Part shown: positions 1,263 through 22,335 of the stretch, one piece after another
How positions within the stretch are numbered: the first letter of the stretch is position 1
Layout of the letters: each line of letters begins with the position of its first letter
Assembly (NCBI RefSeq): GCF_002019635.1
Contig: NZ_KV917372.1
Coordinates: 1,736,001-1,800,000, forward strand
Direction: 5' to 3'
From: Metabacillus halosaccharovorans
GTDB lineage: Bacteria > Bacillota > Bacilli > Bacillales > Bacillaceae
Length of the DNA: 64,000 bases
The notes under the pieces: generated by a model
The model's database searches: none
Told to the model about the DNA's origin: nothing
What the model saw: only the letters and a program-made list of their open reading frames with translations
Translations under genes and position numbers: made by a program

Positions 1263-1282
1263 AGCTCATCTCTCCTTAAAAA

Positions 1283-2323
<1,041 letters not shown>

Positions 2324-2345
2324 CTATTCCTCCCAAACATTTTAT

Positions 2346-2362
2346 TTAACCTACTAGGTTAA
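2346..2362. promoter_or_regulatory. Perfect 17-bp palindrome between iolE and iolG
   Basis: The sequence TTAACCTA-C-TAGGTTAA is a perfect inverted repeat in the 112-base gap between iolE and iolG. It has no T-run after it, so it is not an ordinary terminator. It could be a protein binding site for an internal promoter or an mRNA processing hairpin. I do not recognise the motif. Confidence 0.4.
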
Positions 2363-2432
2363 TGCTTTCATACCAATATAGGCAGTAGAGTCATGTAACC
2401 TCTAAGTCCCTAAAAATTACCTTTTCATAAAG

Positions 2433-3344: not shown

Positions 3345-3357
3345 GAGCTCACCTCTA

Positions 3358-5271: not shown

Positions 5272-5286
5272 CCTTTTTCACCTCTA

Positions 5287-6285: not shown

Positions 6286-6299
6286 CACATCTCCTTTTG

Positions 6300-7115
6300 T
6301 TATCGTTTTAAAATCCATTCATGGTCAGGATCATTATGAAACTTCCAAACTCGTGTAGGACCTGCCATTACATTTAAATAGTAAGACGTATATCCTTCAG
6401 GAACTCCAACTGGATGATAACCAACAGGTACAATGACCATGTCACTATTTTCGACTGTCATTGTTTCATCTATTGAGCGATCATCTGTGTAAACTCGCTG
6501 GAACACAAAGCCCTGCGGTGGATCCATTTCATGGTAATATGTTTCTTCCAAAAATGATTCCTCAGGCAAATTATCCTGATCATGCTTATGAGGAGGATAA
6601 CTGGACCAGTTACCACTTTCTGTAAAGACCTCTACAACTAGTAAACTATTAGCTGAAGGATCAGAATCAGGCAGAATATTTTGAACCATACGTTTATTAT
6701 TACCTGTGCCTCTATACTCCACACCATTATCTGCAGCACTGATGAGTTTTGTTGGTAATTGTTTATTTGAAGGTGAATAACATAAAGCAACTCTCGCCTG
6801 ACTAACTGCCTCAATTTCAAAGGTTTTATCATTTGAAACATAAACACTGTCAGTTGGTTTCTTTTCAAAAACTGATTCACGCGTTCCGATTCGATCAAAT
6901 AATACTTCCTGATCACTTACATTGATTTGTCCTATTACAGCAACGATACAACATTCTTGTTTTTCTAACGTTTCTGTATATCGTGCTCCAGGTACAAGAT
7001 CGATCATTTTAAAGCCAACATACTCCAAAGTTGAATTTTCAGATGTTACATCATGTACAAGAGTAACACCCTTTGCCAATTCCTTTTGCACTGGTTTGCG
7101 TAGTAATCTACTCAT
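6300..7115 (-). CDS. iolB: 5-Deoxy-glucuronate isomerase IolB
   Basis: IolB converts 5-deoxy-glucuronate to 2-deoxy-5-keto-gluconate. The 271-residue protein is a bicupin. The second cupin contains the metal-binding cluster seen as YPPHKHD around residue 160, followed by a downstream Glu in the EETYYHE segment. It is the first visible gene of the operon, with an AAGGAGG site seven bases before the ATG. Its leader is about 300 bases long and contains two cre boxes downstream of the predicted promoter. In B. subtilis iolA comes first; here it does not precede iolB and must lie elsewhere if present. Confidence 0.92.
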   Translation of the reverse strand: MSRLLRKPVQKELAKGVTLVHDVTSENSTLEYVGFKMIDLVPGARYTETLEKQECCIVAVIGQINVSDQEVLFDRIGTRESVFEKKPTDSVYVSNDKTFEIEAVSQARVALCYSPSNKQLPTKLISAADNGVEYRGTGNNKRMVQNILPDSDPSANSLLVVEVFTESGNWSSYPPHKHDQDNLPEESFLEETYYHEMDPPQGFVFQRVYTDDRSIDETMTVENSDMVIVPVGYHPVGVPEGYTSYYLNVMAGPTRVWKFHNDPDHEWILKR

Positions 7116-7177
7116 TCATGATCCTCCTTATTTAATGATGTTTTTATGAATATTTTTTATTTATATCCCACTCTCAC

Positions 7178-7191
7178 TGAAATCGATTTCA
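7178..7191. promoter_or_regulatory. cre box in iolB leader (perfect)
   Basis: TGAAATCGATTTCA is fully palindromic and matches every position of the CcpA box TGWAANCGNTNWCA. It lies 63 bases before the iolB start, inside the predicted leader, where bound CcpA would act as a roadblock to transcription of the inositol genes. Confidence 0.75.
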
Positions 7192-7221
7192 TTTATTACT
7201 ATAAAACAATGGAAAAATCAC

Positions 7222-7234
7222 CTAGGGTACCTAG
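7222..7234. repeat. 13-bp palindrome CTAGG-gta-CCTAG in iolB leader
   Basis: A short perfect inverted repeat lies between the two leader cre boxes. It may be an operator or a small leader hairpin; on the minus strand it is followed by GTGATTTTT. I do not recognise it. Confidence 0.35.
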
Positions 7235-7346
7235 TTTATTTCACTTATTGTTCCAAAAAGGTCATATTCAAGCGTTTTTGTGATTGAATTTTTACCTTTC
7301 TTGAACTTTTTAGTCCTTCAATATTTTCATAAGACAAGCTTATCAC

Positions 7347-7360
7347 TGCAATCGATTTCA
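7347..7360. promoter_or_regulatory. Second cre box in iolB leader
   Basis: TGCAATCGATTTCA matches the CcpA consensus with one deviation at position three. It lies about 65 bases downstream of the predicted operon start point. Confidence 0.6.
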
Positions 7361-7422
7361 TTTATATGTTTTATCAGGTTTCAATATTCTTGTTGTGTTA
7401 GAAATACTAAATTTATAATTTA

Positions 7423-7451
7423 ATAGTACCACTTACATAAAGCGCTTTCAA
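7423..7451 (-). promoter_or_regulatory. Predicted iol operon promoter overlapping a cre-like box
   Basis: On the minus strand TTGAAA (7446-7451) and TACTAT (7423-7428) are separated by exactly 17 bases, a SigA-type promoter firing toward iolB. A cre-like sequence (TGAAAGCGCTTTAT, 7437-7450) overlaps the -35 box, the same arrangement as at iolT. No clear tandem 11-mer IolR operator could be found here by eye. Confidence 0.55.
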
Positions 7452-7483
7452 GTTTTGTTTGAAATTTAATAAGTTTCGATACT

Positions 7484-7517
7484 ATCCCGGAACAGGTCTA
7501 TCTCAAAGGTCCGGGAT
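7484..7517 (-). terminator. Hairpin after the tautomerase gene
   Basis: ATCCCGGA and TCCGGGAT form an 8-bp G+C-rich stem about 25 bases after the tautomerase stop codon. There is no strong T-run, so it is a weak terminator or an mRNA 3' stabiliser separating this gene from the iol operon promoter. Confidence 0.45.
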
Positions 7518-7542
7518 TACTCCCGCTGAATCCGATGGATAC

Positions 7543-7932
7543 TTAAAGCTTACCTGTTAAAAATTGTGCTTCCCCTAGTCCAAAGCTCCAATCCGCATCA
7601 CTATTTTCTGTAATAGATACCATAAGATCTTCAGGTGAAACACCACACTCTGTTTTCAGTCTATCAGCTAATAACGCATATAACTTTTCTTTCTGACTTG
7701 TTGTACGTTTTTTACTTACAACACTTATAAGAACCAAGTCCTTTGTTCTTGTAAACCCTAACCCTGTATCTTGAATGATCAATTCATTTGGAGCATGCTG
7801 ATGAACAATTTGATAACGATCACGTTGAGGCACTTGAAAGGCATCCACCATCGCTTGATGAGCTGTATCAAGCAACGTTCTTAATGTTTCTTCATCTCGA
7901 CCTTCTACTAAATCAAAACGTAATAATGGCAT
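7543..7932 (-). CDS. Tautomerase family protein (4-oxalocrotonate tautomerase superfamily)
   Basis: The 129-residue protein begins [12 protein letters not shown], with the proline that becomes the N-terminal catalytic base after methionine removal. It is double the size of classical 4-oxalocrotonate tautomerases and resembles the B. subtilis YrdN/YusQ group; the block DADWSFG near the C-terminus is typical of that group. Its substrate is unknown. It lies 29 bases downstream of iolR in the same direction and probably shares its transcript, so it may be expressed with inositol metabolism. An AAGGGGG site precedes the ATG. Confidence 0.8.
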
Positions 7933-7961
7933 AAATCTAAATCCCCCTTAAATAATTTCTT

Positions 7962-8717
7962 TTATCGTGAAATGATTAATTCAATACCATGTTTCTTTGT
8001 AAAAAGCTGATACTCTTCTCCCGGAGATTTGTTTGTAATAATACAATCAACATCTTCGAGATCACAATACGTCATTAAAGCATATCGACCAAATTTAATA
8101 TGATCAACAAGTAAGTAAATTTCAGCACTTTTTTGAACAACAGCTTGCTTAATTTCACTTTCATGTGGAGATGAATGTGTGACCCCATTCTCTAGTGTAA
8201 TTCCAGTGGACGCCATAAAAGCTTTATTAATGTTGTAGGATCTTAAAAGATCCATATTTTTCAAGCTAACAAATGACTTAGTCTTACGATCAAAGACACC
8301 ACCGGTTGAGATGACATTTAAATTCTCATATGGAAAAGAATTGAAAATAAAATCTAAATTATTTGTAATAATTGTCACTTGTTTATCTTTTATAAACTCC
8401 ACCATTTCAAGTGTTGTTGTTCCTGAATCAACATAAATAATGTCTCCATCCTGAATTAAATCAGCTGCAGCTTTAGCAATAGATATCTTTTCTAACTGAT
8501 TCTTTGTCTGTCTTTCATTAAATGATTTAAGAGTTGCATGATTAACCGCTACTCCCCCATAAACCTTTTTAATCTTGCCTCTTTCCACTAATTGCTGGAT
8601 ATCTCTTCTTATTGTGTTCTTTGAAACTTCAAATACCTCGACAAGTTCATCTAAAGAAACTGTTTGTTGCTGAAAAATATAATCTTGAATTTGTTCAATT
8701 CTTTCCGTTTTTATCAT
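7962..8717 (-). CDS. iolR: DeoR-family repressor of inositol catabolism IolR
   Basis: IolR represses the iol operon and iolT until it binds the IolC product. Residues 1-60 form the DeoR winged helix-turn-helix (SLDELVEVFEVSKNTIRRDI); the rest is a DeoR effector domain with the DSGTTT phosphosugar-binding motif. The frame is open to 8738, but the ATG at 8717, six bases after an AGAGGG site, gives a normal 251-residue DeoR protein starting MIKTERIEQ. It is divergent from iolT and shares a 420-base regulatory region with it. The assignment as IolR rests on similarity and on location between iolB and iolT. Confidence 0.85.
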   Translation of the reverse strand: MIKTERIEQIQDYIFQQQTVSLDELVEVFEVSKNTIRRDIQQLVERGKIKKVYGGVAVNHATLKSFNERQTKNQLEKISIAKAAADLIQDGDIIYVDSGTTTLEMVEFIKDKQVTIITNNLDFIFNSFPYENLNVISTGGVFDRKTKSFVSLKNMDLLRSYNINKAFMASTGITLENGVTHSSPHESEIKQAVVQKSAEIYLLVDHIKFGRYALMTYCDLEDVDCIITNKSPGEEYQLFTKKHGIELIISR

Positions 8718-8785
8718 GACAATCCCTCTTGTTCTCATTTGGCAGTGCTGTCGTAATGATTATGCCATTAACACTAAATGATTCA

Positions 8786-9137: not shown

Positions 9138-10547
9138 ATGGAACAATCCCAAAAGTCTTTTCTATTTAAAGTCATCTTTGTATCAACATTTGGTGGGCTA
9201 CTATTCGGTTACGACACTGGTGTAATCAATGGCGCCTTACCATTTATGTCTGAAGCACTTGGCCTTACGTCATTTACTGAAGGGCTTGTTGCAAGCTCAT
9301 TGCTTTTTGGTGCAGCTCTTGGTGCAGTTTTCGGTGGTAGATTATCAGATTACAGTGGACGCCGGAACAATATCCTTTTATTAGCTGTTATTTTCTTTGT
9401 CGCTACAGTTGGATGTACGTTGGCACCAAATGTAACGGCTATGGTGTTCTTTCGCTTCCTACTTGGATTAGCAGTTGGAGGAGCATCAGTAACAGTACCT
9501 AGTTATCTAGCAGAAATGTCTCCAGCGGAGAGTAGAGGAAGAATGGTTACCCAAAACGAACTAATGATTGTATCCGGTCAACTCTTAGCTTTTGTTATTA
9601 ATGCTATTCTAGGTAACACAATGGGCCACCATGATCATGTATGGCGTTATATGTTAATTATTGCCGCACTTCCTGCGATCTTTTTATTCTTTGGAATGCT
9701 TAAGCTTCCAGAAAGTCCCCGTTGGCTCGTTTCTAGGCAAAAAAATACTGAAGCTCTACAAGTTTTAAATAAAATCAGAGCAGAAAAGCAAGCAAAATCA
9801 GAACTAAATGAAATTAAATCAATCTTCGAAAAAGAGGCTCAAACTAATAAAGCAACGATGAAAGACATGGCTGTTCCTTGGGTACGACGTATTCTTTTCA
9901 TCGGAATTGGTATTGCAGTTGTTCAACAAGTTACAGGTGTTAACTCTATTATGTATTATGGGACTGAGATTCTGAAAGACGCCGGCTTTGATACAGGTGC
10001 AGCACTAATTGGTAACATTGCAAATGGTCTTATTTCTGTACTCGCTACTTTCGTCGGAATTTGGCTGCTCGGAAAAGTAGGTCGCAGACCAATGCTTTTA
10101 ACAGGTTTATTAGGCACAACATCAGCCCTTCTTCTTATTGGTATACTCTCAATTACACTTGAAGGAACCGCTGCTCTTCCGTATGTTGTTCTTTCGTTAA
10201 CAGTTTTATTTCTTGCTTTCCAGCAAGGTGCTATCTCACCAGTTACCTGGTTAATGTTGTCAGAAATATTCCCCACTCGTTTAAGAGGCCTTGGTATGGG
10301 TGTTAGTGTATTCTGTTTATGGATTGTTAATTTCTTAATAGGTTTATTATTCCCAATGCTTTTAGCATCAGTAGGTCTATCAACTACATTCTTTGTTTTC
10401 GTTGGACTCGGAATTATTGCTATGACATTTGTCGTTAAATTCTTACCGGAAACTAAAGGTCTGTCTCTTGAGCAATTGGAGGAGTACTTCCGTAATTATG
10501 GTAAGAATTATCCTACAGATGAGCCGTTAGACAAAATAGCTAAATGA
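9138..10547 (+). CDS. iolT: myo-Inositol/proton symporter IolT (MFS sugar porter)
   Basis: IolT is the major inositol importer, a 12-helix sugar porter of the major facilitator superfamily. The 469-residue protein shows the family signatures in order: GGLLFGYDTGVINGA in helix 1, GGRLSDYSGRR in loop 2-3, PESPRWL before the central loop, QQVTGVNSIMYY in helix 7, and PETKGLSLEQLE at the C-terminus. An AAAGGAGAG site precedes the ATG. It is divergent from iolR, with a cre-containing promoter and tandem 11-mers upstream, which supports an inositol rather than a glucose role. A strong terminator follows. Confidence 0.88.
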   Translation: MEQSQKSFLFKVIFVSTFGGLLFGYDTGVINGALPFMSEALGLTSFTEGLVASSLLFGAALGAVFGGRLSDYSGRRNNILLLAVIFFVATVGCTLAPNVTAMVFFRFLLGLAVGGASVTVPSYLAEMSPAESRGRMVTQNELMIVSGQLLAFVINAILGNTMGHHDHVWRYMLIIAALPAIFLFFGMLKLPESPRWLVSRQKNTEALQVLNKIRAEKQAKSELNEIKSIFEKEAQTNKATMKDMAVPWVRRILFIGIGIAVVQQVTGVNSIMYYGTEILKDAGFDTGAALIGNIANGLISVLATFVGIWLLGKVGRRPMLLTGLLGTTSALLLIGILSITLEGTAALPYVVLSLTVLFLAFQQGAISPVTWLMLSEIFPTRLRGLGMGVSVFCLWIVNFLIGLLFPMLLASVGLSTTFFVFVGLGIIAMTFVVKFLPETKGLSLEQLEEYFRNYGKNYPTDEPLDKIAK

Positions 10548-10555
10548 ATAAAATG

Positions 10556-10586
10556 AAGGCGCTTTATTCAAAGCGCCTTTTTATTT
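10556..10586 (+). terminator. Rho-independent terminator of iolT
   Basis: AAGGCGCTTT-attc-AAAGCGCCTT is a perfect 10-bp stem followed by a T-rich run. Confidence 0.9.
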
Positions 10587-10644
10587 AAAAGATTATGATT
10601 AGTATTCTCCATTTACGGACTAAATCAGAATGCAAATAGATATA

Positions 10645-12201
10645 CTAATTGTTCAATAATTTTCTAAACTGTTTTTTATACTCAGCAGGAGTATATCCGG
10701 TAAATTTTTTAAAACAAATACCAAAATATTGAGGGTTGTTATAGCCAGCTTTTTCACATACTTCATACGTTTTGATATCAGGGTTTCGCAATTCTTCCAT
10801 TGCTTTTTTCATCCGGATTTCCACCAAATAATCCCCAAAATTAAACCCTTTTTCCAGTTTAAACAAATTGCTCAAATACGGTGTACTAACATGAATAAAT
10901 TCCGCTACCTTTTTAAGTGTTAAGGTACTATCGTGATAATGCTCATTCATATACTTTATTGCTTGATCAACATGGCTGAAGTGATTTTTATCATGCTTTT
11001 TATACATTTCTTCACACCATTGCAAAATAAGTCCATTTAAAATCTCCATCATTTCTGAAAGGGTTTCCATTTTTATGATCTCTTTATAAAAATCAGATGA
11101 ATTAAAACTCTCCCCTACTTCTTTTCTCCATTTTTCAACTTCGAAAAATAGCATGGTACTAAACTTAAGTGTGAGGATTTTTAACTCAGTTAATGGAACC
11201 GACTTTTGATCAACAATTGTTTTATTTAATTGTTTAAGAGTACTACTCACCTTTTCAGGTATCCCTAACTTAATATTACTTTCTAATTCTATTTCTAGTT
11301 CTTTTAAGCGATTTTCTGTTTGTTCTCTACTTGAAACAGTATCTTCAAATGAAAAAAACCTGCATGTTCCCATTATATGTTTCATATCCATCGCTAAACG
11401 AGATTCAATCAATGATTTTCCAAGTTCAAATAAATTGGGATATGTTCTGCCAAACGTGATTGTAGGAGAATGATCAGTAAAGGAATCAAATAATTGTTGT
11501 GCCAGTTGGCATTTTCGGTTGTCGTCTTCATCATCAAGCGATAAAATAATTGCATTTTCATGTGGATCAATATTGATGACAATAAAGTTTCCTTGTAAAA
11601 AAAGAGATGAGGTGATCTCAACTATCTTTATGTTAGATTCTTCACTAAAACCTGCTGGAGAATGAACTAGAAGCGCGGCATAACTTGGTCCTTCCAATTC
11701 TACTCCTAGTTCAGCTAATTCTTTCTCCACATCCATTCGCTGATCGCCTTCTCTTATCAACTGCTGAAAGAATTTTTGTTGAAGATAGTGCAGGGATTCT
11801 TTCATTCTCATTTCCTTTTTTGTTTCATCTTCCCAATCTGCTGCTGCTTCTTGTACTTTGGAAAGCATTAGCTCTGAATCAACAGGCTTTAATAAGTAAT
11901 CAAAGGCTTTAAGTTTTAACGCTTGGTGAGCATATTTAAAATCTTCATACCCTGTTAAAAAAATAATTCTCGTTCCCGGACTAATCTCTTTAATCTTTTT
12001 CCCCATTTCCAATCCATTCATAAAAGGCATATTAATATCTGATATGACGACCTGCGGCTTGACTTTCTCAATTAGCTCTAGTGCCACCTCACCGTCTCCT
12101 GCTTGACCCGCGATGGTAAAACCGTGCTCCTCCCACTGGATTGACTGACAAATCCCTCGACGAATAATCCGATCATCTTCAACAACAATCACCTTATACA
12201 T
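10645..12201 (-). CDS. AraC-type response regulator (YesN-like)
   Basis: This 518-residue regulator has an N-terminal receiver domain (about 1-120, acidic pocket ED at 8-10, predicted phosphorylated Asp55, Lys in LLKPVDS). A long linker follows, and the C-terminus carries a double helix-turn-helix AraC DNA-binding domain (about 415-515, ending GYTPAEYKKQFRK). Its ATG overlaps the end of the histidine kinase gene by eight bases, so the two are translationally coupled. It probably controls the adjacent carbohydrate genes; the mirrored repeats at 18636-18752 are candidate targets. The sugar sensed is not known. Confidence 0.88.
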   Translation of the reverse strand: MYKVIVVEDDRIIRRGICQSIQWEEHGFTIAGQAGDGEVALELIEKVKPQVVISDINMPFMNGLEMGKKIKEISPGTRIIFLTGYEDFKYAHQALKLKAFDYLLKPVDSELMLSKVQEAAADWEDETKKEMRMKESLHYLQQKFFQQLIREGDQRMDVEKELAELGVELEGPSYAALLVHSPAGFSEESNIKIVEITSSLFLQGNFIVINIDPHENAIILSLDDEDDNRKCQLAQQLFDSFTDHSPTITFGRTYPNLFELGKSLIESRLAMDMKHIMGTCRFFSFEDTVSSREQTENRLKELEIELESNIKLGIPEKVSSTLKQLNKTIVDQKSVPLTELKILTLKFSTMLFFEVEKWRKEVGESFNSSDFYKEIIKMETLSEMMEILNGLILQWCEEMYKKHDKNHFSHVDQAIKYMNEHYHDSTLTLKKVAEFIHVSTPYLSNLFKLEKGFNFGDYLVEIRMKKAMEELRNPDIKTYEVCEKAGYNNPQYFGICFKKFTGYTPAEYKKQFRKLLNN

Positions 12202-13987
12202 CTCCGTTAATCTCCCCCTTTGTTTTAGGAATCATAATGCTCACCACTGTTCCCTGACCAGGTTTACTGGATATAACTAATCCATATTCTTTTCCAAAGT
12301 GGATGTTAATTCGTTCGTTTACACTTTTTAATCCAATCCCAATAAATCCTCTTTTCTCCTGAAAGGATTCTCCCAGTTCTCTCTTTATTTCTATTAATTT
12401 ATCTTGTTCGATCCCATTCCCATTATCAGCCACCTCTAAGTGAATGGACCCTTCCTTCTCAAATCCTCTTATTGAAATTTTTCCAAGACCTCTTTTCTGT
12501 TTTACACCATGGTATATCGCATTTTCTATAAGCGGTTGTAGAGAAAGTTTGATTATGTTATAGGAAAGAATCTCTTGTTCAATGTTAATTTCGTAAGTAA
12601 AGTCATCTCCATACCGCATTTCCTGAATAAATAAGTAATGCTCAATATGCTCGATCTCATCCTTTATGGAGATAATCTCTTTTCCTTTACTAATTCCGAT
12701 TCGAAAAAAGCTTGAGAGAGCGCTTACCATTTGACTTGCATCCTTATTAAGACCCATGTCACAGAGCCCTTTTATTGAATAAAGCGTATTATAAAGAAAG
12801 TGTGGATTTATTTGTGCATGCATAATAGCAAATTCTAATTGCCGCTTTTCCTCCTGGTCCAACCGAATCTGGTCCATCAATGTTTGAATTCGGAAGAATA
12901 ATTCTTTAAAACCGTTATGAAGGATTTTCATTTCTTCAGGACCGGATGTTTCATCATAAAAATCAAGGCTTTGGTTATTCATTGTGCGCATTTGTTCAGC
13001 CATTTTTTCAAATGGTTTTGAAATATATTTTCCTACAATATTGGTGATAAATATTGCACTGACAATCATCATGATAATGAAAAAAACAGTCACATGTTTT
13101 ATGTAATTTACTTTGTTTAATATCTCATTTTCAGGGACTATGGCTGCCAGTTTCCATTTATTTGCCTGGATTGTATCATAAATCACAATCATCTCTTCAC
13201 CCGCAGCGCTTTCATAGGAGAACTGTCCACTCTCTTTTTTCATACTTTGAAGGGAATGAAGCGTTTTATGATCAAGTTTATATTCCTCTTTCACATCTTT
13301 GGATTCATATTTTCCGTCAGGACTGATCAGGGTAAGGTAACCATTTTTACCGATTAATGATTTGTTCAATACCTGTTCAAAAAAATCATCACGAAGATTA
13401 AAAAGTACAATTCCTTTATCTGAATTCTCGATCACTCTAAACACTGACATAACCTGATCGTTTGTCTTAAAAATTTGATCTTGATGGATATTCCTCCAAT
13501 AAAACCCCTCTTTATTTCCTTTATATTGGTTAAAATAATGATCATATGGAACAGAGGGATTAGATGTATAATCACTATGGTAAAGCAAAAACTCACCCTG
13601 ATTAAGATCAATTAAAACGGATTCAATGATGACATTATACCGGGAATAAACAAGCTGTAAACTTTTATCAATCTCCACATAATATTCAGGTTTAATGTCA
13701 GATTCTTTCGTTCCGACTAAGTTTAAAACCCTCGGATCATTCGATACCGCTACAAGTTGCTGAAAAACATCCGAAAGCATATAGTCTAAATAATTTATTG
13801 ACTGGAAGATCGTATCATTTACATTTTTATATGCATTTTCTTCAATTTGTGCAGTCGCAAGCATAGAGGATACCCATCCAGAAACGGATATAAAAATAAT
13901 AATGATAGACAAATAGAGTGTATTTATTGTAGATTTAATCGAGTACAGAAAATACTTTCGAATGAATTTCTTTATCTTCGTCACCAT
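12194..13987 (-). CDS. Sensor histidine kinase (YesM-like)
   Basis: A 597-residue membrane kinase of the LytS/YesM class. It has a transmembrane helix near residues 22-44, an extracellular sensor region of about 250 residues (Cache-like by position), a second helix near 300-320, a HAMP linker, a His_kinase domain with the phosphorylated His in INPHFLYNTLYS (about residue 395), and an HATPase_c domain with DNGNGI and GIGLKSVNER. An AGGAGAA site precedes the ATG. It forms an operon with the response regulator. A cre-like sequence lies about 70 bases upstream but is off register by one base. Confidence 0.88.
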   Translation of the reverse strand: MVTKIKKFIRKYFLYSIKSTINTLYLSIIIIFISVSGWVSSMLATAQIEENAYKNVNDTIFQSINYLDYMLSDVFQQLVAVSNDPRVLNLVGTKESDIKPEYYVEIDKSLQLVYSRYNVIIESVLIDLNQGEFLLYHSDYTSNPSVPYDHYFNQYKGNKEGFYWRNIHQDQIFKTNDQVMSVFRVIENSDKGIVLFNLRDDFFEQVLNKSLIGKNGYLTLISPDGKYESKDVKEEYKLDHKTLHSLQSMKKESGQFSYESAAGEEMIVIYDTIQANKWKLAAIVPENEILNKVNYIKHVTVFFIIMMIVSAIFITNIVGKYISKPFEKMAEQMRTMNNQSLDFYDETSGPEEMKILHNGFKELFFRIQTLMDQIRLDQEEKRQLEFAIMHAQINPHFLYNTLYSIKGLCDMGLNKDASQMVSALSSFFRIGISKGKEIISIKDEIEHIEHYLFIQEMRYGDDFTYEINIEQEILSYNIIKLSLQPLIENAIYHGVKQKRGLGKISIRGFEKEGSIHLEVADNGNGIEQDKLIEIKRELGESFQEKRGFIGIGLKSVNERINIHFGKEYGLVISSKPGQGTVVSIMIPKTKGEINGDV

Positions 13988-14124
13988 CTTTTAAATTCTC
14001 CTGTAGTAACAAAATAGAAGACAAACTCTCCTACTAAAAACAATAACTGATTAAATGAAAGCGGTAAACAAAATTCTCCCGCAAATTCCAGAACTTTTTG
14101 ATACATCTTTAAAGAATACATAGA

Positions 14125-14162
14125 AACCTTTCCTTACACTCAAAAAAAGTATAAGAAAAGGT
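14125..14162 (-). terminator. Long imperfect hairpin between the GH105 and kinase genes
   Basis: AACCTTTCCTTACACT pairs with AGTATAAGAAAAGGTT across a 6-7 base loop (16-bp stem with a few mismatches). The minus-strand T-run is weak. It probably marks the end of the ABC-GH105 transcript or partly attenuates reading into the kinase gene. Confidence 0.5.
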
Positions 14163-14195
14163 TCATGTCTTTGTATTACGTACAATATTGTTAAA

Positions 14196-15323
14196 CTAAT
14201 CTAAGTTGTTACCTGATTCCTTAATAAGATCATAATAAGCCATGCTTCCTAAAATAAATGCACCCATACCATGCAAATCATTTTCTGATGTAGGGCGTTC
14301 CACATAATAGTCATACACTCCAGCTGAAGTTCCAATACAAATCCCGCTTAAGTTGAGTGCTGCTTCCTTTTCTTCCACCATGTGTTTTAACAACCCTTTA
14401 TATCCCTTATCAACTACTTTACGGTAAGAGGTATCCACATAGCCAAGTTGGATTCCTTTCGCGATAAAGTAAATAAATAGTGCAGAACAAGATGATTCTA
14501 ACCAGTTGTCTTCAAGGTCACCTTTATCTACTATTTGATACCATAATCCCGTTTTTTCATCTTGAAACTTTACAATAGCGGGGATAAAGCTTTGAAGCGA
14601 TGAAATCAATTCCTCCTGTCCACGCTGTCTGTCTCCTAATAGCTCCAATAAATCAATTAATGCTGTGCCATACCAGCCGACAGAACGACCCCAGAATTCT
14701 TGTGAACAACCTGTTTCAGGATTTGCCCATGGCTGAACCTTTTTCTCATCCCAGGCGTGATAAAGTAGTCCCGTTTTCTCATCTGTCATATGTTTTCTCA
14801 TCAGCTTTTCTTGTAAAAGAACAGTTTGAATTAATTCTTCTTCATGGAAGTGCCGGCTATAAAGAAGCATGAACGGTCCACCCATAAAGAGGCCATCTAA
14901 CCACATTTGATAAGGGTATTTTTCTTTATGCCAAAAACCATTTTCGCTTGTTCTGTTAATTGTTTCTAAAGCACTTCTTAGTCTCTTTGCCGCAATCATA
15001 TATCTTGGGTCTTTTGTCTCTTCGTATAATGGAAACAATAAAATTCCCGCCATCGTGGAATCAAGCTCATCTCTTGCAAAACAGACATTACCAAACTCAT
15101 CAATTAAATGATCAAAATAAGCTTTTATATACTCAAAATATTCTTTTTTCCCGGTAGCTTGATAAACTCTGTACATACCATACAGGAACACTCCTTGATG
15201 GTAATGAAAATGATTAACAGGGGGCAATTCCTCTGCTCGGAATGTTTGCATCAAAGCCTGACATGCCTTTTCCGCCATCACCAAAGGAGTTCCGATTGCC
15301 ATTTTTTCTGTTGTATTTTCCAT
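14196..15323 (-). CDS. GH105 family unsaturated uronyl hydrolase (YteR/YesR-like)
   Basis: The 375-residue protein is an (alpha/alpha)6-barrel hydrolase of family GH105/GH88. These enzymes hydrate the 4,5-unsaturated uronic acid at the non-reducing end of oligosaccharides made by lyases. The motif WLDGLFMGGPF, with its catalytic Asp near residue 145, and FWGRSVGWYGTALIDLL are family hallmarks. No signal peptide is visible, so it acts inside the cell on an imported disaccharide or oligosaccharide. It is the last gene of the ABC importer operon. A rhamnogalacturonan-type substrate is likely from the family, but a glucuronyl or other acidic sugar cannot be excluded. Confidence 0.82.
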   Translation of the reverse strand: MENTTEKMAIGTPLVMAEKACQALMQTFRAEELPPVNHFHYHQGVFLYGMYRVYQATGKKEYFEYIKAYFDHLIDEFGNVCFARDELDSTMAGILLFPLYEETKDPRYMIAAKRLRSALETINRTSENGFWHKEKYPYQMWLDGLFMGGPFMLLYSRHFHEEELIQTVLLQEKLMRKHMTDEKTGLLYHAWDEKKVQPWANPETGCSQEFWGRSVGWYGTALIDLLELLGDRQRGQEELISSLQSFIPAIVKFQDEKTGLWYQIVDKGDLEDNWLESSCSALFIYFIAKGIQLGYVDTSYRKVVDKGYKGLLKHMVEEKEAALNLSGICIGTSAGVYDYYVERPTSENDLHGMGAFILGSMAYYDLIKESGNNLD

Positions 15324-15416
15324 TATCTATTCTCCTTTTCTCGAAAGTATCAAAGAATGTATTCAGTGGTGGAAACAATCCATTCCATTTCCCACTGAAT
15401 GTAATGTAACATCTTA

Positions 15417-16760
15417 TTATTTATTAAACGTTTCATCATATTTTGCTTTTGAATCTTCAATTGCTTTTGCCCATTCGTCAAGGAATTCCTGAGCTGTTTT
15501 TTCACCGCTCATTACTTGCTGAATTCCAGGGTCTACAATGTTATCAAGGATTGAACGGTAATCCGGTAAGTAGAACGGTGGTTCATAAAGTTTCGTTTCA
15601 GGGTTTTCATATACATCAAATGCTACTTTAATATGCTGGGCATTCTGTACCCACTCATCATCCAACACTTCGGAATTTGTTGGGATTTGACCAGTTGCTT
15701 CATTCCACAAGCTTTGTGCCTCTACAGAGTTAACAAACTCAACAAATTTCCATGCAGCATCAGGATTTTCTGAATTTTTAAAGATCGCTACATTGACAGC
15801 GTTTCCACCCTCAGCAACGTATTTTCCATCCTCAGTTTTAGGAAGTGGAATAGTCTTAAATGTTCCTTCTTCTAATGACTTCTTATGCTCACCATAAGAA
15901 CCAACATTGTGGTGCACCATGGCAACGACACCAGTATCAAAGCCTGCAATCATTTCCTTATACCCGTTCGTGATATCACTCTTCGGTGTGAATTTTTCAT
16001 AATATGACAGATATTTTTCAACGAACTCCACATGTTTAGGATCATTGATATTTACTTTTCCATCTTCACTAAAGTAATCTAAACCACTATAAGCAAACAT
16101 TAAACGCTGTAGCTGGAAGGATCCGCCAGCACCTCCTCGAATTGTATATCCATAGCGTCCATTCTCTTTATCTGTCATTTTTTCAATGGCTGTAAAGAAC
16201 TCATCAAATGTTTCTGGTTCTTTTACCCCTGCTTCTTCAAACCAGTCTGTACGAATCCAGATTGTGTCAAGGTTTTGAGCATATGGAATCCCGTAAAGTT
16301 TTCCATCTTGTGTAATTTTCTTATTAAAGTCGATAGCACCTGAGTTCATTTTATCCTTTAATTCAGAACCCTCGAAATACTCATCGATAGGAAGTAATGC
16401 CTCACGAATGGCAAACTCAGGAAGCCATGTTGTTTGAACAGATCCAACGTCTGGAGTATCATTTGCTGCAATTGCTGCATCATATTTAGATTTAGCCGAT
16501 TTATTTGGAATACCGACATACTCAACATCAATGCTCGGATTTGCTTCCTCAAACTGTTTAATGACTTCTTCCCATAAAGGTGTCCGTTCAGGACTTGCAT
16601 TCTCATCCCAGAATGTAATCTTTACAGGTTCATCTGAACTGCCTCCGGATTTTGGAGTCGAAGACGTTTCATCACCGCCACTGCATCCAGCAAGCAGCAA
16701 TCCAGAAACAATTGAAAGGGTTAATAAAGATTTCGTCCATTTTTTCTTATTTACTAACAT
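15417..16760 (-). CDS. ABC sugar-binding lipoprotein (family 1)
   Basis: A 447-residue extracellular solute-binding protein with a lipoprotein signal peptide ending LLLAGC-S around residue 26. The mature protein has the family 1 (MalE-like) arrangement. The block ITFWDENASPERTPLWEEV follows the lipobox, and NSVEAQSLWNEATGQIP lies near the C-terminus. It is the third gene of the importer operon, after two permeases. It is closely similar along its whole length to the second binding protein at 20050-21372, so the two are paralogues. The operon carries no ATPase gene; a shared MsmX-type ATPase is presumably used. Confidence 0.88.
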   Translation of the reverse strand: MLVNKKKWTKSLLTLSIVSGLLLAGCSGGDETSSTPKSGGSSDEPVKITFWDENASPERTPLWEEVIKQFEEANPSIDVEYVGIPNKSAKSKYDAAIAANDTPDVGSVQTTWLPEFAIREALLPIDEYFEGSELKDKMNSGAIDFNKKITQDGKLYGIPYAQNLDTIWIRTDWFEEAGVKEPETFDEFFTAIEKMTDKENGRYGYTIRGGAGGSFQLQRLMFAYSGLDYFSEDGKVNINDPKHVEFVEKYLSYYEKFTPKSDITNGYKEMIAGFDTGVVAMVHHNVGSYGEHKKSLEEGTFKTIPLPKTEDGKYVAEGGNAVNVAIFKNSENPDAAWKFVEFVNSVEAQSLWNEATGQIPTNSEVLDDEWVQNAQHIKVAFDVYENPETKLYEPPFYLPDYRSILDNIVDPGIQQVMSGEKTAQEFLDEWAKAIEDSKAKYDETFNK

Positions 16761-16790
16761 GATAGTACCCCCTTAGATTTTTATAAATAA

Positions 16791-17627
16791 TTAGCCTTTG
16801 ACAGCCCCACCCATACCATTGACAAGATGTTTCTGTGCATAGGCAAATAATATAACTGCAGGAATTAAAGCAATGACACTACCAGCTGCTAATGCTCCAT
16901 AGTTAACATTAAATTCTCCCATCATTGAACTTAATCCGACTGGAAGTGTGAACTTTGATTGCTGATTGGTCAGCATTAAAGCTAGTAAAAATTCGTTCCA
17001 GGTATAGATGAATGTAAATACCCCTGTTGCTACAATCCCCGGCAGCAGTAATGGAAAAACAACATGACGCAAGGATTGCATCTTTGAACAACCATCAATC
17101 ATAGCTGCTTCTTCCAATTCTTTTGGTACATTTGAAATAAACCCTGCCATGAGAATCGTCGTAAATGGAATTTCAACTGCTGTATACGTAATAATCAGTG
17201 AAAGCGGATGACTAATTAATCCTAAATTCTTAAAGATGATAAACAATGGAATGATCATCATTGCTCGCGGGATAAACTGAGTACATAGCAGCATCAGCAT
17301 AAAACTTCTCTTCCCTTTAAATTGATATCTGGACAGAGCATAACCAGATAATGTAGAACAGATAAGAACGATAATAACAGTAAAAAATCCAACGATTAAA
17401 CTGTTCTTAAAGAATGTTGCAAAGCCAATATTCGTCCAGGCATAGACAAAATTTTCAACTGTAGGATTTGCCGGTAAGTATTGCAAAGGACGCTTGATGA
17501 TATCTCCTTCCGGTTTTATGGCAGTATTAATTGTCCAGTAGATTGGAAACATCGTAAAACTAAGCATTAACGCCAAAGGTAGATAAAGAGTTAATAGTTT
17601 GTCTATTTTTTTATTTTTGGATAACAT
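16791..17627 (-). CDS. ABC sugar permease, MalG type
   Basis: A 278-residue inner-membrane component with about six hydrophobic segments. The EAA loop needed for ATPase contact is readable as EEAAMIDGCSKMQSLRHVVFP near residue 190. The second permease of the operon, it is separated from the first by eight bases. Its ribosome binding site AGAAGGAG overlaps the upstream stop codon, indicating coupled translation. Confidence 0.88.
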   Translation of the reverse strand: MLSKNKKIDKLLTLYLPLALMLSFTMFPIYWTINTAIKPEGDIIKRPLQYLPANPTVENFVYAWTNIGFATFFKNSLIVGFFTVIIVLICSTLSGYALSRYQFKGKRSFMLMLLCTQFIPRAMMIIPLFIIFKNLGLISHPLSLIITYTAVEIPFTTILMAGFISNVPKELEEAAMIDGCSKMQSLRHVVFPLLLPGIVATGVFTFIYTWNEFLLALMLTNQQSKFTLPVGLSSMMGEFNVNYGALAAGSVIALIPAVILFAYAQKHLVNGMGGAVKG

Positions 17628-17635
17628 CCTTCAAA

Positions 17636-18577
17636 TCACTCCTTCTCATATCTGGATAGTTTTAAATAAAGGATGGCAAAGATTAATAGAATCCCAAATG
17701 AAACAACTGTTAATGCTGAGCCATAGCCGAAATTACTTCCATGTACAGCTAAATCAGCGATATACATCGTAAGCGTTGTTGTGGAGTGTGCAGGCCCGCC
17801 ACCTGTTAAATTGAATATGAGATCCACGTTATTAAACTCCCAAACGACCCTTAGTAAGGTTGTTAAGATAATTGTGTTTTTTAGTTGTGGTAGCGTGACA
17901 TAGAAAAATGTTTTCCTTCTACTCGCCCCATCCACTTTTGCTGCCTCATATAATTCGCTTGGAATACTTTGTAAGGAAGCTAATAGAGTAATGGCAAAGA
18001 AAGGAATCCCCCTCCATAATTCAGCAATGACCACTGCCCAAAAAGCTGTTGAAGTGCTTGCTAGAAAGGCCATCGGTTCATTAATTATGCCTATTTTCAT
18101 TAGCATGTCATTGATAACACCCATGTGCTCATTGAACATCATCGACCACATTACTGACGCAAGCACACCAGATATTGCCCATGGAATAAAGGCCACTGCT
18201 CGAGCCAGCCCTCTAAATTTAAAGGTTTGGTTTAGTAATAAAGCTAAAATCATCCCAAACGTTAATTGAAGGCCCACTTCTGATACAACCCATTTCAAAC
18301 TATTAAGTAAACTTGGAACAAACATTTCATCCTGAGTAAAAATTTTGACAAAATTATCCAGTCCTGCAAATCCATTGTAGTAAGGTGCAGATACGTCATA
18401 GTTTTGAAGACTATAGTAAAATACAGTTGCTATCGGATAAAACAGAAAACCTACAATTATGAGGAATGATGGCAAAATAAAAAGATACGGAATCCACTTT
18501 TCTTTGTTTATTTTCTTTTTATGAACCACCTTGTTACTGTTAATAGTTGTTTTCGGTAATCCTTGAGAATAACTCAT
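17636..18577 (-). CDS. ABC sugar permease, MalF type
   Basis: A 313-residue membrane component with an N-terminal cytoplasmic stretch of about 28 residues, six hydrophobic segments and an EAA loop (ELYEAAKVDGASRRKTFFYVTLP). It is the first gene of the importer operon. A strong AAAGGAGGAAACG site precedes the ATG. The predicted promoter with a cre box and paired repeats lies directly upstream. Confidence 0.88.
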   Translation of the reverse strand: MSYSQGLPKTTINSNKVVHKKKINKEKWIPYLFILPSFLIIVGFLFYPIATVFYYSLQNYDVSAPYYNGFAGLDNFVKIFTQDEMFVPSLLNSLKWVVSEVGLQLTFGMILALLLNQTFKFRGLARAVAFIPWAISGVLASVMWSMMFNEHMGVINDMLMKIGIINEPMAFLASTSTAFWAVVIAELWRGIPFFAITLLASLQSIPSELYEAAKVDGASRRKTFFYVTLPQLKNTIILTTLLRVVWEFNNVDLIFNLTGGGPAHSTTTLTMYIADLAVHGSNFGYGSALTVVSFGILLIFAILYLKLSRYEKE

Positions 18578-18601
18578 ATCGTTTCCTCCTTTCTGGGTTT
18601 A

Positions 18602-18630
18602 ATTGTAAATGTAAACGGTTTCTTTTGTAA
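18602..18630 (-). promoter_or_regulatory. Promoter of the ABC importer operon with cre box in the spacer
   Basis: On the minus strand TTACAA (18625-18630), a 17-base spacer and TACAAT (18602-18607) form a promoter with a poor -35 box, as expected for an activator-dependent gene. The spacer holds a cre box, TGTAAACGGTTTCT (18610-18623), matching 13 of 14 consensus positions. Confidence 0.6.
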
Positions 18631-18635
18631 TTAAA

Positions 18636-18667
18636 GATTTTAAGATGATTGATTAAAATTTTAAGAT
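18636..18667 (-). promoter_or_regulatory. Activator-type operator pair facing the ABC operon
   Basis: Read toward the ABC operon, ATCTTAAAATT (18657-18667) and ATCTTAAAATC (18636-18646) are direct repeats whose starts are 21 bp apart, two helical turns. The proximal copy ends five bases before the -35 box. This is the arrangement used by AraC-type activators. Confidence 0.6.
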
Positions 18668-18720
18668 ATTTTAGAAAATTCATTTTTCCCTTTTTCCCCT
18701 ACTCGTCTTTCAATCTACTT

Positions 18721-18752
18721 ATCTTAAAATTTTACTAATTGGTCTTAAAATC
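18721..18752 (+). promoter_or_regulatory. Activator-type operator pair facing the isomerase gene
   Basis: ATCTTAAAATT (18721-18731) and GTCTTAAAATC (18742-18752) are direct repeats spaced 21 bp. They mirror the pair at 18636-18667, with distal and proximal copy types in the same order relative to transcription. Confidence 0.6.
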
Positions 18753-18757
18753 TTTTA

Positions 18758-18786
18758 TTATCTACGAAAGCGCATTCATTTAAAAT
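18758..18786 (+). promoter_or_regulatory. Promoter of the isomerase-like gene with cre-like spacer
   Basis: TTATCT (18758-18763), 17 bases and TAAAAT (18781-18786). The spacer contains CGAAAGCGCATTCA, a cre-like sequence with two deviations. The geometry equals that of the opposite promoter base for base. Confidence 0.55.
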
Positions 18787-18832
18787 AAAGACAAGTCATA
18801 TCTATAAATCTGTTTAAGGAGGGTGTACGATA

Positions 18833-19945
18833 TTGAATAATAACGTATTAAATGTAGATGGATCGAAGCCTGTTAAATTATCGCCTGCCCGCTCATGGCG
18901 GACCTATTTAGGAGGAAAACTAATAGAAGAATTTTACGGAAGCAAGGATCCAAAGGATAGTCACTTTCCTGAAGAATGGATCATATCCATTGTTTCTAGT
19001 CGAACGGTTGGCCGCGAAACTGACGGATTAAATAAACTGGCTTTATCTAATATGGATGTTACCTTAAAAGAAATTGTTGATGAAAAACCCGGAGTATTTT
19101 TAGGTGAAAAGCATGTAGAAAAATTTGGAGAACAGACTGGTGTACTCGTTAAGTTGATTGATTCAGCAGAACGTTTAATTATACAAACCCACCCTGACAA
19201 GGAGAAAGCGAAAGAATTATTTGATTCCGCATACGGAAAAACAGAATGCTGGTATTTTATCGGGGGAAGAGAGATTAATGGCGAACCTCCATATGTATAT
19301 CTTGGCTTTAAACCCGAAGTGACAAAAGAACATTGGAAAAAATTATTTAAAGAACAAAATATACAAGGTATGTTAGATTGTATGCACAAATATGATGTCC
19401 ATCCCGGAGACACGTTTCTAATCGAAGCAGGCACTCCCCATGCCATAGGATCAGGTTGTTTATTAGTTGAAATTCAGGAACCTACCGACTTTACAATTCG
19501 TTTAGAAAAAACATCTCCATCTGGTTTACAATTGGAAGATTACTTACTTCATCAGGGATTAGGTTTCGAGAAAATGTTTGATGTTTTTAATTACCAGACT
19601 TACACAAGGAAAGAAACCTTAAGAAAATGGAAAGTAGCTCCTACAGTACTTGATACAACTTCGAGTCATAAAGAAACTGAACTTATTGGATATCAGCAAA
19701 CACCTTGCTTTAGAATGACGCTTATCGAAGTAACAGCTGAGTTCGACATTCGAGGTGATGGAGTATTTTCCGGATTATACATTCTTTCCGGAACTGCAAT
19801 TGTTACAACCGGGGATGATCGTCAAGCTGTTAAAAAAGGTGACCAACTTTTTATCCCTGCACAAGTTTCAAGCTTTTCAATTATAAATGACTCGGATCAA
19901 CCTGTTAAAGCCTTAAGGTTATTTGGTCCTTCCTTAAATGATTAG
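18833..19945 (+). CDS. Class I mannose-6-phosphate isomerase-like protein
   Basis: The 370-residue protein belongs to the zinc-dependent type I phosphomannose isomerase family, which interconverts mannose 6-phosphate and fructose 6-phosphate. The metal-site motifs are visible: LIIQTHPDKEKA (Gln and His ligands) near residue 118, KTECWYFI (Glu ligand) and IEAGTPHAIGSGCLLVEIQE (His ligand) near 200. The start is a TTG about nine bases after AAGGAGG; no ATG is well placed. It is transcribed away from the ABC importer, with a mirror-image promoter, so it is probably induced with it. The real substrate could be another phospho-sugar released from the imported glycan. Confidence 0.82.
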   Translation: MNNNVLNVDGSKPVKLSPARSWRTYLGGKLIEEFYGSKDPKDSHFPEEWIISIVSSRTVGRETDGLNKLALSNMDVTLKEIVDEKPGVFLGEKHVEKFGEQTGVLVKLIDSAERLIIQTHPDKEKAKELFDSAYGKTECWYFIGGREINGEPPYVYLGFKPEVTKEHWKKLFKEQNIQGMLDCMHKYDVHPGDTFLIEAGTPHAIGSGCLLVEIQEPTDFTIRLEKTSPSGLQLEDYLLHQGLGFEKMFDVFNYQTYTRKETLRKWKVAPTVLDTTSSHKETELIGYQQTPCFRMTLIEVTAEFDIRGDGVFSGLYILSGTAIVTTGDDRQAVKKGDQLFIPAQVSSFSIINDSDQPVKALRLFGPSLND

Positions 19946-19988
19946 GTATTTTCTGAACAAGGGAATGAGAAAATTATATAAATTGGAT

Positions 19989-20030
19989 AAAAAGGTACAT
20001 ACCTATCTTGACTTGGTATGTACCTTTTTA
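19989..20030. terminator. Bidirectional terminator between the isomerase and second binding-protein genes
   Basis: AAAAGGTACATACC pairs with GGTATGTACCTTTT, followed by T-runs in both directions. It lies between convergent genes. Confidence 0.85.
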
Positions 20031-20049
20031 TCTTTTTATGAAAAAGCAA

Positions 20050-21372
20050 CTAGTTTTCAAAGCCATCCTCGTAATGCTTTTGAGCTGTTTCCATCGCATT
20101 TGCCCACATATCGAGAAAATCCTCTACCGTCATTTGCCCACTTAAAACCTCTTGGATACCCGGATCTACAATAGTGTTGAGAATCGTTCGGTATTCAGGA
20201 AGATAAAAAGGAGGTTCATACAGAATTGTCTCTTTATCATCATAAACTTGTCTGGATATCTTAATTTGAGAAAATTCATTTACCCAATCTTCTTTTAAAA
20301 CATCTTCATGAGTCGGAATTTGACCTGCGGTTTTATTCCATAGCTGTTGCGCTTCTTTTGAACTTAAGAACTGAACAAATTTCCAAGCCTCATCAGGATG
20401 TTTCGTTCCTTTAAAGATGCTTATCCCGATTGTATTTCCATCTTCAACTACGTATTGACCATTAATTGACTTCGGCAACGGAAAAGCCTGAAATTGATTA
20501 GGATTTAATGCTTTGCTATGCTCAGCATAGGAACCTATATTATGCTGAATCATTGCAGCGACCCCTGTATCAAAATTTGCTAACATGGCTTTATAATCAT
20601 TCGTAATATCACTTTTAGGGGTATACTTTTGGTACAAACCAAAATATTTTTCCAAAAAATCAACATGTTTTGAATCATTAATGGTGCTTTCACCATCTTG
20701 GAAATAATTCTGAATTCCTGAATAGGCATACATCATCCTTTGTAATTGAAATGCCCCACCAGCACCTCCACGTAATGAGTAACCATATCTCTCATTTGAT
20801 TTATCAGTAAGTGTTTCAACCGCACTGAAGAATTCATCCCAAGTTTCAGGAGCTTCTACTTTTGCCTCTTTAAACAAATCTGTACGGACCCAAAGGATAT
20901 CGAAGTTTTGAGTATATGGAATTCCATATAACTTTTGATCTTCTACAATTCTCCTGCTAAATTCAATCGCTTTTTTGTTTATTTTGTCTTTTTCAGACCA
21001 ATTTTCAAAATAGGAATCAAGAGGTAATAGTGCTTCACGATGTGAAAATTCAGGCAGCCAGCTTGTATAAACACTGGCAACATCAGGCATATCATCAGAG
21101 GCAATCGCAGCATCAAACTTTGACTTTGCATAATCTTTAGGCAGCCCAATATACTCTACATCAATTGTAGGATTTCCTCGTTCAAACGTTTGAATTAACT
21201 CATCCCATATGGGTGTCCGCTGCGGCCCAGCGTTATCATCCCAAAAGGTAATTTTCACTTTCATATTTTGTTCAGCTAAATTATCGGATTGTGATTCCAC
21301 ACCCATACAACCTGTTAAAAGTAACATCATGAATGTTAGAACAGGAATTATTAATAAGCGCCACCTATACAT
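20050..21372 (-). CDS. Second ABC sugar-binding lipoprotein (paralogue)
   Basis: A 440-residue family 1 solute-binding protein with a lipoprotein signal ending LLLLTGC-M at about residue 22. The mature sequence parallels the 15417-16760 protein throughout (for example ITFWDDNAGPQRTPIWDEL and WNKTAGQIPTHEDVL). It has no permease or ATPase neighbours of its own in the same orientation, so it probably serves the permeases at 16791-18577 with altered substrate preference. A AAGGAGAC site precedes the ATG. The mirrored ATCTTAAAAT operator motif is absent upstream, so its regulation may differ from the operon. Confidence 0.86.
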   Translation of the reverse strand: MYRWRLLIIPVLTFMMLLLTGCMGVESQSDNLAEQNMKVKITFWDDNAGPQRTPIWDELIQTFERGNPTIDVEYIGLPKDYAKSKFDAAIASDDMPDVASVYTSWLPEFSHREALLPLDSYFENWSEKDKINKKAIEFSRRIVEDQKLYGIPYTQNFDILWVRTDLFKEAKVEAPETWDEFFSAVETLTDKSNERYGYSLRGGAGGAFQLQRMMYAYSGIQNYFQDGESTINDSKHVDFLEKYFGLYQKYTPKSDITNDYKAMLANFDTGVAAMIQHNIGSYAEHSKALNPNQFQAFPLPKSINGQYVVEDGNTIGISIFKGTKHPDEAWKFVQFLSSKEAQQLWNKTAGQIPTHEDVLKEDWVNEFSQIKISRQVYDDKETILYEPPFYLPEYRTILNTIVDPGIQEVLSGQMTVEDFLDMWANAMETAQKHYEDGFEN

Positions 21373-21588
21373 CCCTTTGTCTCCTTCATATTTACGTATA
21401 GTAATCTAATAGTAAGTAAATGATCTCACTAGTTCAATAAAAAACAATATTTATCATAGATGGTACTATTATTAGAAACAAGATATCTTTGACTTCTTAT
21501 AAAAAAATTGAGATAGTAATCAATGGATTTTCATTGTTAAATAGGATAATCTAATAAACATAACCTTATAGGAAATGGATGGAAATAA

Positions 21589-22335
<747 letters not shown>

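Follow-up and report, generated by a model that had tools for sequence, protein, structure and literature searches.

Two divergent promoters at 18602-18786 of the window (the whole 64,000-nucleotide stretch of DNA analyzed here) each carry a pair of direct repeats set 21 bp apart, and this repeat pair is a conserved operator as judged by comparison across genera. The half-sites are very probably the binding sites of the linked YesN-like response regulator, predicted to act as a class II activator with CcpA repressing. The minus-strand promoter precedes permA, the first gene of an ABC importer operon, and the plus-strand promoter precedes a sugar isomerase gene (manA). With the operator defined at the sequence level, together with its spacing rule and a handful of targets, the system can be tested directly. 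The features are listed in Table 1.

Table 1. Genes of the importer cluster, elements of the two promoters, and reversed operators in related loci. Frequencies are mean frequencies of the commonest base in 16 permA promoters.
Feature	Position	Strand	Basis
YesN-like AraC-type response regulator, predicted binder of the repeats	10645..12201	-	Receiver Asp55; HTH_18 at 433-511
YesM-like sensor histidine kinase, His396	12194..13987	-	His_kinase, HATPase; Cache match weak, below cut-off
YteR-like (GH88/GH105) unsaturated uronyl hydrolase	14196..15323	-	PF07470 408 bits; YteR 1nc5 483 bits
SBP1, sugar-binding lipoprotein	15417..16760	-	ORF list and domain search
permB, second ABC permease	16791..17627	-	ORF list and domain search
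permA, ABC permease (BPD_transp_1), first gene of the operon	17636..18577	-	ORF list and domain search
-10 box TACAAT, permA promoter; graded fair	18602..18607	-	Sequence; frequency 0.83
17-nt spacer with cre-like AAGAAACCGTTTACA, permA promoter	18608..18624	-	Sequence; frequency 0.87
-35 box TTACAA, permA promoter; poor match, poorly conserved	18625..18630	-	Sequence; frequency 0.70
Proximal half-site ATCTTAAAATC, permA operator, 21 bp from distal, 5 nt from -35	18636..18646	-	Frequency 0.97
Distal half-site ATCTTAAAATT, permA operator	18657..18667	-	Sequence; frequency 1.00
Distal half-site ATCTTAAAATT, isomerase promoter	18721..18731	+	Sequence; genome pattern search
Proximal half-site GTCTTAAAATC, isomerase promoter, 5-nt gap to -35	18742..18752	+	Sequence; genome pattern search
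-35 box TTATCT, isomerase promoter; poor match	18758..18763	+	Sequence
17-nt spacer with cre-like ACGAAAGCGCATTCA, isomerase promoter	18764..18780	+	Sequence
-10 box TAAAAT, isomerase promoter; graded fair	18781..18786	+	Sequence
Type I phosphomannose-isomerase-like sugar isomerase (manA)	18833..19945	+	Pfam PMI_typeI_cat 29.3, cut-off 22
SBP2, second sugar-binding protein	20050..21372	-	ORF list and domain search
Reversed operators past the regulator gene	L037 18501; L038 18814; L040 18424; L042 19142; L043 18105; L041 17976; L045 17963; L046 18187		

The half-site consensus is ATCTTAAAAT, and it occurs as a direct pair, 21 bp apart, 5 nucleotides upstream of a weak -35 box. On the minus strand a 10-nucleotide spacer separates the distal (18667-18657) from the proximal half-site (18646-18636). 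The proximal half-sites of both strands have the form RTCTTAAAATC, and 51 of 66 positions are identical between the permA and isomerase promoters. An earlier note on this DNA had drawn both promoters in this way, and on re-reading the sequence each element was found where it had been placed. Because the half-site is almost palindromic (ATCTTAAAAT / ATTTTAAGAT), its position can be assigned with more confidence than its direction. A generic promoter scan of 10400-21700 gave 38 promoter-like sites against a shuffle mean of 42.9, with no excess, and the -35 and -10 boxes therefore rest on position and conservation instead.

The regulator has domains above the cut-offs at residues 4-116 (PF00072) and 433-511 (PF12833), which is the YesN-type architecture of a receiver followed by a C-terminal double helix-turn-helix, and its gene is overlapped by 8 nucleotides by the kinase gene. 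A terminator-like hairpin lies at 14164-14124, between the hydrolase and kinase genes. Such hairpins are no commoner than in shuffled sequence (5 versus 7.2), so the kinase-regulator pair may or may not be transcribed separately. The isomerase passes its Pfam cut-off and misses that of the NCBIfam manA model (86.1 versus 116.2 bits). Near the SBP2 gene the half-site matrix described below found no operator match above 14 bits; that SBP2 is a sensor component is a guess. Elsewhere in the window, positions 411-8738 hold a probable myo-inositol cluster with a DeoR-type regulator (DeoR by domain search), which we take from its sequences to be an iol catabolic cluster.

The exact pattern RTCTTAAAATY-N10-RTCTTAAAATY has two matches in the 5.4-Mb genome, both within 18602-18786, and the reversed-pattern control has none. 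With up to three mismatches, three further places appear in the genome versus one for the control. Among 100 relative genomes, the pair with 0-1 mismatch is present in three (G000, G015, and G018; five places), and a regulator at least 70% identical is present in exactly the same three. G018 and locus L036 are probably the same organism, judging from an identical operator and regulator. With up to two mismatches there are 13 places in nine of these genomes versus six for the reversed control. Among 398 Bacilli genomes, the regulator is matched at E up to 1e-90 in four, which are this genome and others with 52%, 41%, and 39% identity; the exact-type pair is absent from those three.

A half-site matrix was trained on 16 permA sites and applied at a threshold of 14 bits, with a mononucleotide shuffle as control. 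It gives 28 matches across 22 cluster sequences, a figure that includes the 16 training sites, and none in 2,966,100 shuffled positions. A chance coincidence of AT-rich sequence is scarcely credible. The half-sites are AT-rich, matches with two or three mismatches occur elsewhere, and one unrelated-looking pair with one mismatch exists in G476, all of which would suit such a coincidence; it is refuted by the conservation in 16 promoters together with the empty shuffle control, and among the 398 Bacilli genomes the 0-1-mismatch pair occurs in just two, this genome and G476.

Several looser matches were rejected as operators. Those at L003 (a genome site with two to three mismatches), L116, and L117 sit within open frames. 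The match at L004 is not within a long open frame, and the same holds for the related sites L121 and L122. This ATCTTAATATC...ATCTTAACATT site is similar in all three, which represent three genomes, and by resemblance is perhaps a set of PhoP-type repeats.

A public-genome scan with the permA product returned at least 80 loci, of which 44 (L036-L079) were scanned for the repeat pair. Among the matches listed, the pair stands upstream of permA with 0-1 mismatches in 14 of the 14 closest loci (L036-L049), from Metabacillus, Ureibacillus, Lysinibacillus, Bacillus, Priestia, Neobacillus, and Mesobacillus, so that the repeats do recur at the same place in relatives. In the other 30 scanned loci, again among the matches listed, a pair with at most one mismatch is present in L053 (Enterococcus) only. 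A conservation profile was built from 16 permA promoters, including those of the window and G015. In addition to the values in Table 1, the commonest base has a mean frequency of 0.85 in the inter-site spacer, 0.95 in the gap before the -35 box, and 0.71 past the -10 box. The 40 nucleotides further upstream, which serve as an internal control, have a mean of 0.48.

The cre consensus is WTGNAANCGNWNNCW. Both cre-like boxes of the window have one mismatch to it, at the second position, and full matches exist in L052, L053, and L054. The cre-like sequence that the earlier note placed in the spacer holds a nearly constant phase to the operator across relatives. In the forward promoters the cre-like CG is 18 nucleotides past the proximal half-site, or 19 in L045, L047, and L048; in the printed sequences of L047 and L048 there is one base fewer before the -10 box, so the distance from operator to -10 is unchanged. 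The second-slot promoters (those in the position of the isomerase promoter) of L139, L039, L040, and L044 have the CG at the same phase, and the esterase promoter of L038 is without a cre-like CG.

Seven distant promoters (L050, L052, L053, L054, L055, L160, and L161) were anchored on their cre-like sequences, some of them having been viewed by eye beforehand, and the predicted operator offset ranks first (five promoters) or second (two promoters) of 131. The anchor in L055 was the cre-like match nearest the gene of three, and those in L160 and L161 were chosen by eye. The combined p of 1.3e-8 overstates the evidence, since L160 and L161 are nearly the same sequence and other promoters of the set are also related. 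L051, which has no cre-like anchor, was left out. L160 and L161, with a regulator 41% identical, have the half-sites TTCTAAAGATA and ATCGAAAGATT in the same register. The genome encodes one CcpA above the cut-off (521 versus 442 bits).

Homologues of the kinase and the AraC-type regulator are linked to the importer in 20 of 20 loci (L036-L055, among the matches listed), where the L052 regulator match is in two pieces and some others are cut by the locus end. Regulator identity drops to about 29% in L054. The proposal of an AraC-type activator, perhaps the regulator at 10645, is consistent with this linkage and with the 21-bp spacing beside the -35 box. The linkage fits the rest of the cluster as well as the regulator and cannot separate the two. 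Co-variation between the operator and the DNA-binding domain of the regulator, with permease divergence controlled, gave a partial r of 0.12 (permutation p 0.27) over 20 loci. These are 20 of 22 operators, L048 and L049 having been dropped (regulator cut by the locus end), with L044 and L051 outside the set. Co-variation was therefore discarded as support for binding, there being no signal beyond shared ancestry. In L053 the operator sequence is kept with a regulator that is 31% identical overall and 41% in the DNA-binding domain.

In an AraC-family class II site, a direct pair of half-sites with 21-bp spacing adjoins or overlaps the -35 box. The arrangement here is of this kind, with the pair adjoining the -35 box. 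A different and unlikely reading is that the linked regulator acts elsewhere and that the repeats are bound by a regulator encoded outside the cluster, such as a repressor that sits as a dimer on each of two near-palindromic TTAA sites. The near-palindromic half-site would suit such a protein, the response regulator does not stand out in the co-variation test, and the LacI-type ccpA family model has 37 matches in the genome. The site, however, lies upstream of the -35 box and not over it, which is the place of an activator, and by eye no other regulator is common to the window, L036, L037, L038, L040, L042, L043, L044, and L139. An additional HTH-type gene is present in L036, at 15003-15917. 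Tandem repeats of 21 bp also recur near some other AraC-type response regulators, as described below.

The linked regulator thus remains the preferred binder. The model that follows for binding, activation, phosphorylation, inducer, and CcpA repression is drawn from the sequence, its conservation, the linkage, and the spacing. The kinase, perhaps with SBP2, would sense unsaturated pectin-type oligosaccharides outside the cell. The phosphorylated regulator would bind the two half-sites as a tandem dimer, as AraC does on araI1-araI2, and would activate RNA polymerase from a class II position. The ABC importer, the YteR-like hydrolase, and the sugar isomerase would thereby be induced. In the presence of a preferred sugar, CcpA on the cre box within the -35/-10 spacer would block both promoters.

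The regulator at 10645 was considered as B. subtilis YesN itself and rejected, since this genome also has a yes-type cluster of its own at another place (L125), and the two regulators are about 30% identical. It is a YesN paralogue and not YesN, orthology here being judged by the context of the L125 cluster, with the B. subtilis YesN sequence outside the alignment.

The earlier note had also read the mirror layout as meaningful in itself, which finds no support. The two promoters are 1.5-1.7 kb apart in L038, L039, L040, L044, and L139, with an oxidoreductase-type gene between them. In L045, L047, and L048, manA and permA share direction. In L036, manA adjoins permA as in the window, yet the manA operator is eroded. 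The mirror could instead be a recent inverted duplication of one promoter with inherited distances, a quite improbable origin. The agreement of the two promoters at 51 of 66 positions speaks for duplication, but the isomerase promoter has more positions in common with the G015 esterase promoter (57 of 66). Over the 34 nucleotides downstream of the operator, second-slot promoters share a mean of 25.1 matches among themselves and 24.2 with permA promoters, while permA promoters share 30.1. Pairs from the same genome average 23.8 of 34, no closer than the 24.2 of all between-slot pairs. These counts disfavor a recent inverted copy; an old duplication, before the genera split, would suit second-slot promoters that are hardly closer to each other than to permA promoters. 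From gene order and promoter similarity, the two promoters of one regulon are therefore neighbors by happenstance, and the mirror arrangement is incidental.

A shared switch for import and isomerisation, also proposed earlier, holds on the permA side and is weaker on the isomerase side. Among 10 upstream stretches, the manA operator is strong (above 20 bits) in four (the window, L039, L044, and the manA remnant of L040), weak (4.5 to 12.2 bits) at a similar distance from the gene in four (L036, L045, L047, and L048), and absent (at most 0.7 bits) in two (L042 and L049), where manA sits elsewhere in the cluster. The L040 remnant, at 8036-8279, stands behind an intact operator and promoter.

In some relatives the second promoter may drive an esterase. 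An esterase gene with a similar promoter occupies the slot of the isomerase in L139 (6038-6826) and L038 (7173-7949), which suggests a promoter that stays while the gene behind it changes. The esterase operators score 31.2 bits in L038, 34.9 in L139, and 7.8 in L037.

Twelve sites above 14 bits were not used in training. In L037, L038, and L040 they lie past the regulator gene and ahead of a KDPG-aldolase/pfkB-kinase operon; the others are upstream of manA (window, L039, and L044), the manA remnant (L040), the esterase (L038 and L139), the TIM-barrel gene of L042, the PL22 oligogalacturonate lyase gene of L139, and the L053 permease gene. Assignments were tested with Pfam for the aldolase, kinase, esterase, and oxidoreductase of L038, the PL22 lyase of L139, the TIM-barrel protein and UxaC of L043, and the GH28 of L048; the counterparts in L037, L040, and L139 were named from resemblance of the listed sequences. 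The YteR-like hydrolase and these regulon genes point to unsaturated pectin-type oligosaccharides as the probable cargo of the importer.

In the stretch past the regulator gene of 10 loci, the operator is reversed in eight (Table 1), with reverse scores of 5.4 to 29.2 bits and forward scores of -9.9 to 8.5. The best score of shuffled stretches reached 5.4 in 0.1%. L039 has no operator in this stretch, and in L049 the examined stretch is inside the regulator gene. A TTGTAA -35 box lies 15 nucleotides from the reversed operator in seven of the eight (not L045), versus 5 nucleotides in forward promoters; according to where the half-site is taken to begin and end, the placement shifts by 9-10 bp. 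The reversed promoter precedes the KDPG-aldolase operon (L037, L038, and L040) or the TIM-barrel gene (L042 and L043, with UxaC next in L043). No reversed-operator promoter was found in the window with the half-site matrix.

A wider reading, for which belief and doubt weigh evenly, is that one regulator works through a single 21-bp tandem operator placed in either of two ways: forward at 5 nucleotides from the -35 box, before the importer, isomerase, and esterase genes, and reversed at 15, about one helical turn further, at a downstream uronate-catabolic operon. Together with a cre phase-locked from Bacillales to Lactobacillales, this would be an "inducer AND NOT glucose" module that outlasts the exchange of its genes.

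The regulon is new and its kind is already known. Within the titles and abstract openings searched, which lie outside supplements and most subscription journals, no report of this operator was found. On E. coli PBAD, AraC occupies araI1-araI2, a direct half-site pair with 21-bp spacing that adjoins the -35 box. The operator here shares the two direct half-sites, the 21-bp distance, and the position beside the -35 box. AraC, in contrast, senses arabinose itself, whereas the protein here is a phosphorelay response regulator with another half-site sequence. The B. subtilis YesMN/yes cluster has a similar kinase-regulator pair, ABC importer, and GH105-type hydrolase; the gene names used in this comparison are those of what we take to be its rhamnogalacturonan cluster. 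The yes-type system of this genome (L125) differs, with a regulator about 30% identical and the different repeats CTGTTTTTTG / CTGATTTTTG.

In Caldicellulosiruptor bescii, two-component regulators of the AraC family that control sugar importers are described as inferred activators, with tandem repeats located upstream of the promoters (PMC8579813). As here, there is an AraC-type response regulator, an adjoining importer operon, tandem repeats, and an inferred activator; unlike those systems, and as compared by description rather than site sequence, the repeat spacing here is fixed and the distances to the -10 box and the overlapping cre are nearly fixed across genera (PMC8579813). CuaDSR of Ruminiclostridium cellulolyticum is described as a three-component system and likewise has a second binding protein beside a kinase and a YesN/AraC-type importer regulator (PMC10384115), whereas a sensor role of SBP2 is a guess here. 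The same habit of two site orientations is described for RamA and MarA, with opposite orientations at two promoter positions (PMC8811837); here, by contrast, it is seen in the downstream promoters of relatives only, from sequence alone.

For the pneumococcal YesMN-like TCS07, the accessible portion of the report proposes a different motif for the regulator, and for YesN it describes a search in which no repeat stood out clearly (PMC11034029). In C. cellulolyticum, XydR binds to upstream regions, and no consensus site is identified in the part of the report available (PMC3572039). Two further reports, as far as their available portions go, add little on the operator (PMC10766802, PMC2453137). 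Few YesN-type regulators have a defined operator in the portions of the literature looked at, and the type is numerous in this genome, where 23 proteins match the regulator at 10645, receiver-only similarities included.

The 21-bp repeat is a lead to the operators of some of these paralogues. Repeat lags were ranked in the stretches upstream of permease or binding-protein genes that neighbor AraC-type regulators. Lag 21 comes first in five of nine groups (the window's own, A, F, H, and E), with A and E noticed by eye ahead of the lag test. Repeats of 21 bp are thus shown by four of the eight other groups of operons with AraC-type regulators, their sequences differing from this operator. Groups A, F, and H are orthologous yes-type clusters and one system; counted once, the fraction is 3/7, or 3/6 if K and P are one system. 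In G, K, P, and M other lags come first, and lag 21 has ranks of 6, 9, 4, and 9, respectively. Lag 22 is second in K, for which the orthologue comes from two of four loci only, and a 22-bp pair is readable by eye in P. Paralogue regions B (L135 and L136), C (L137), and D (L138) were left out of the lag test, C and D being from one genome each, and no clear repeat is seen by eye in region B.

Three further places with such repeats are worth recording. L125 (C2:1516000-1534000 of this genome), which from gene order we take to be a rhamnogalacturonan yes-type cluster, combines its 21-bp repeats with a cre-like box after the -10 box. In L055, at about 9601-9850 (Sporosarcina), tandem GGAAACGTT-type repeats lie upstream of an importer. 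In L132, upstream of 7253, AAAAAAGTAC is repeated at 21 bp ahead of an operon for a sugar-binding protein, which has a further AraC-type regulator as its neighbor.
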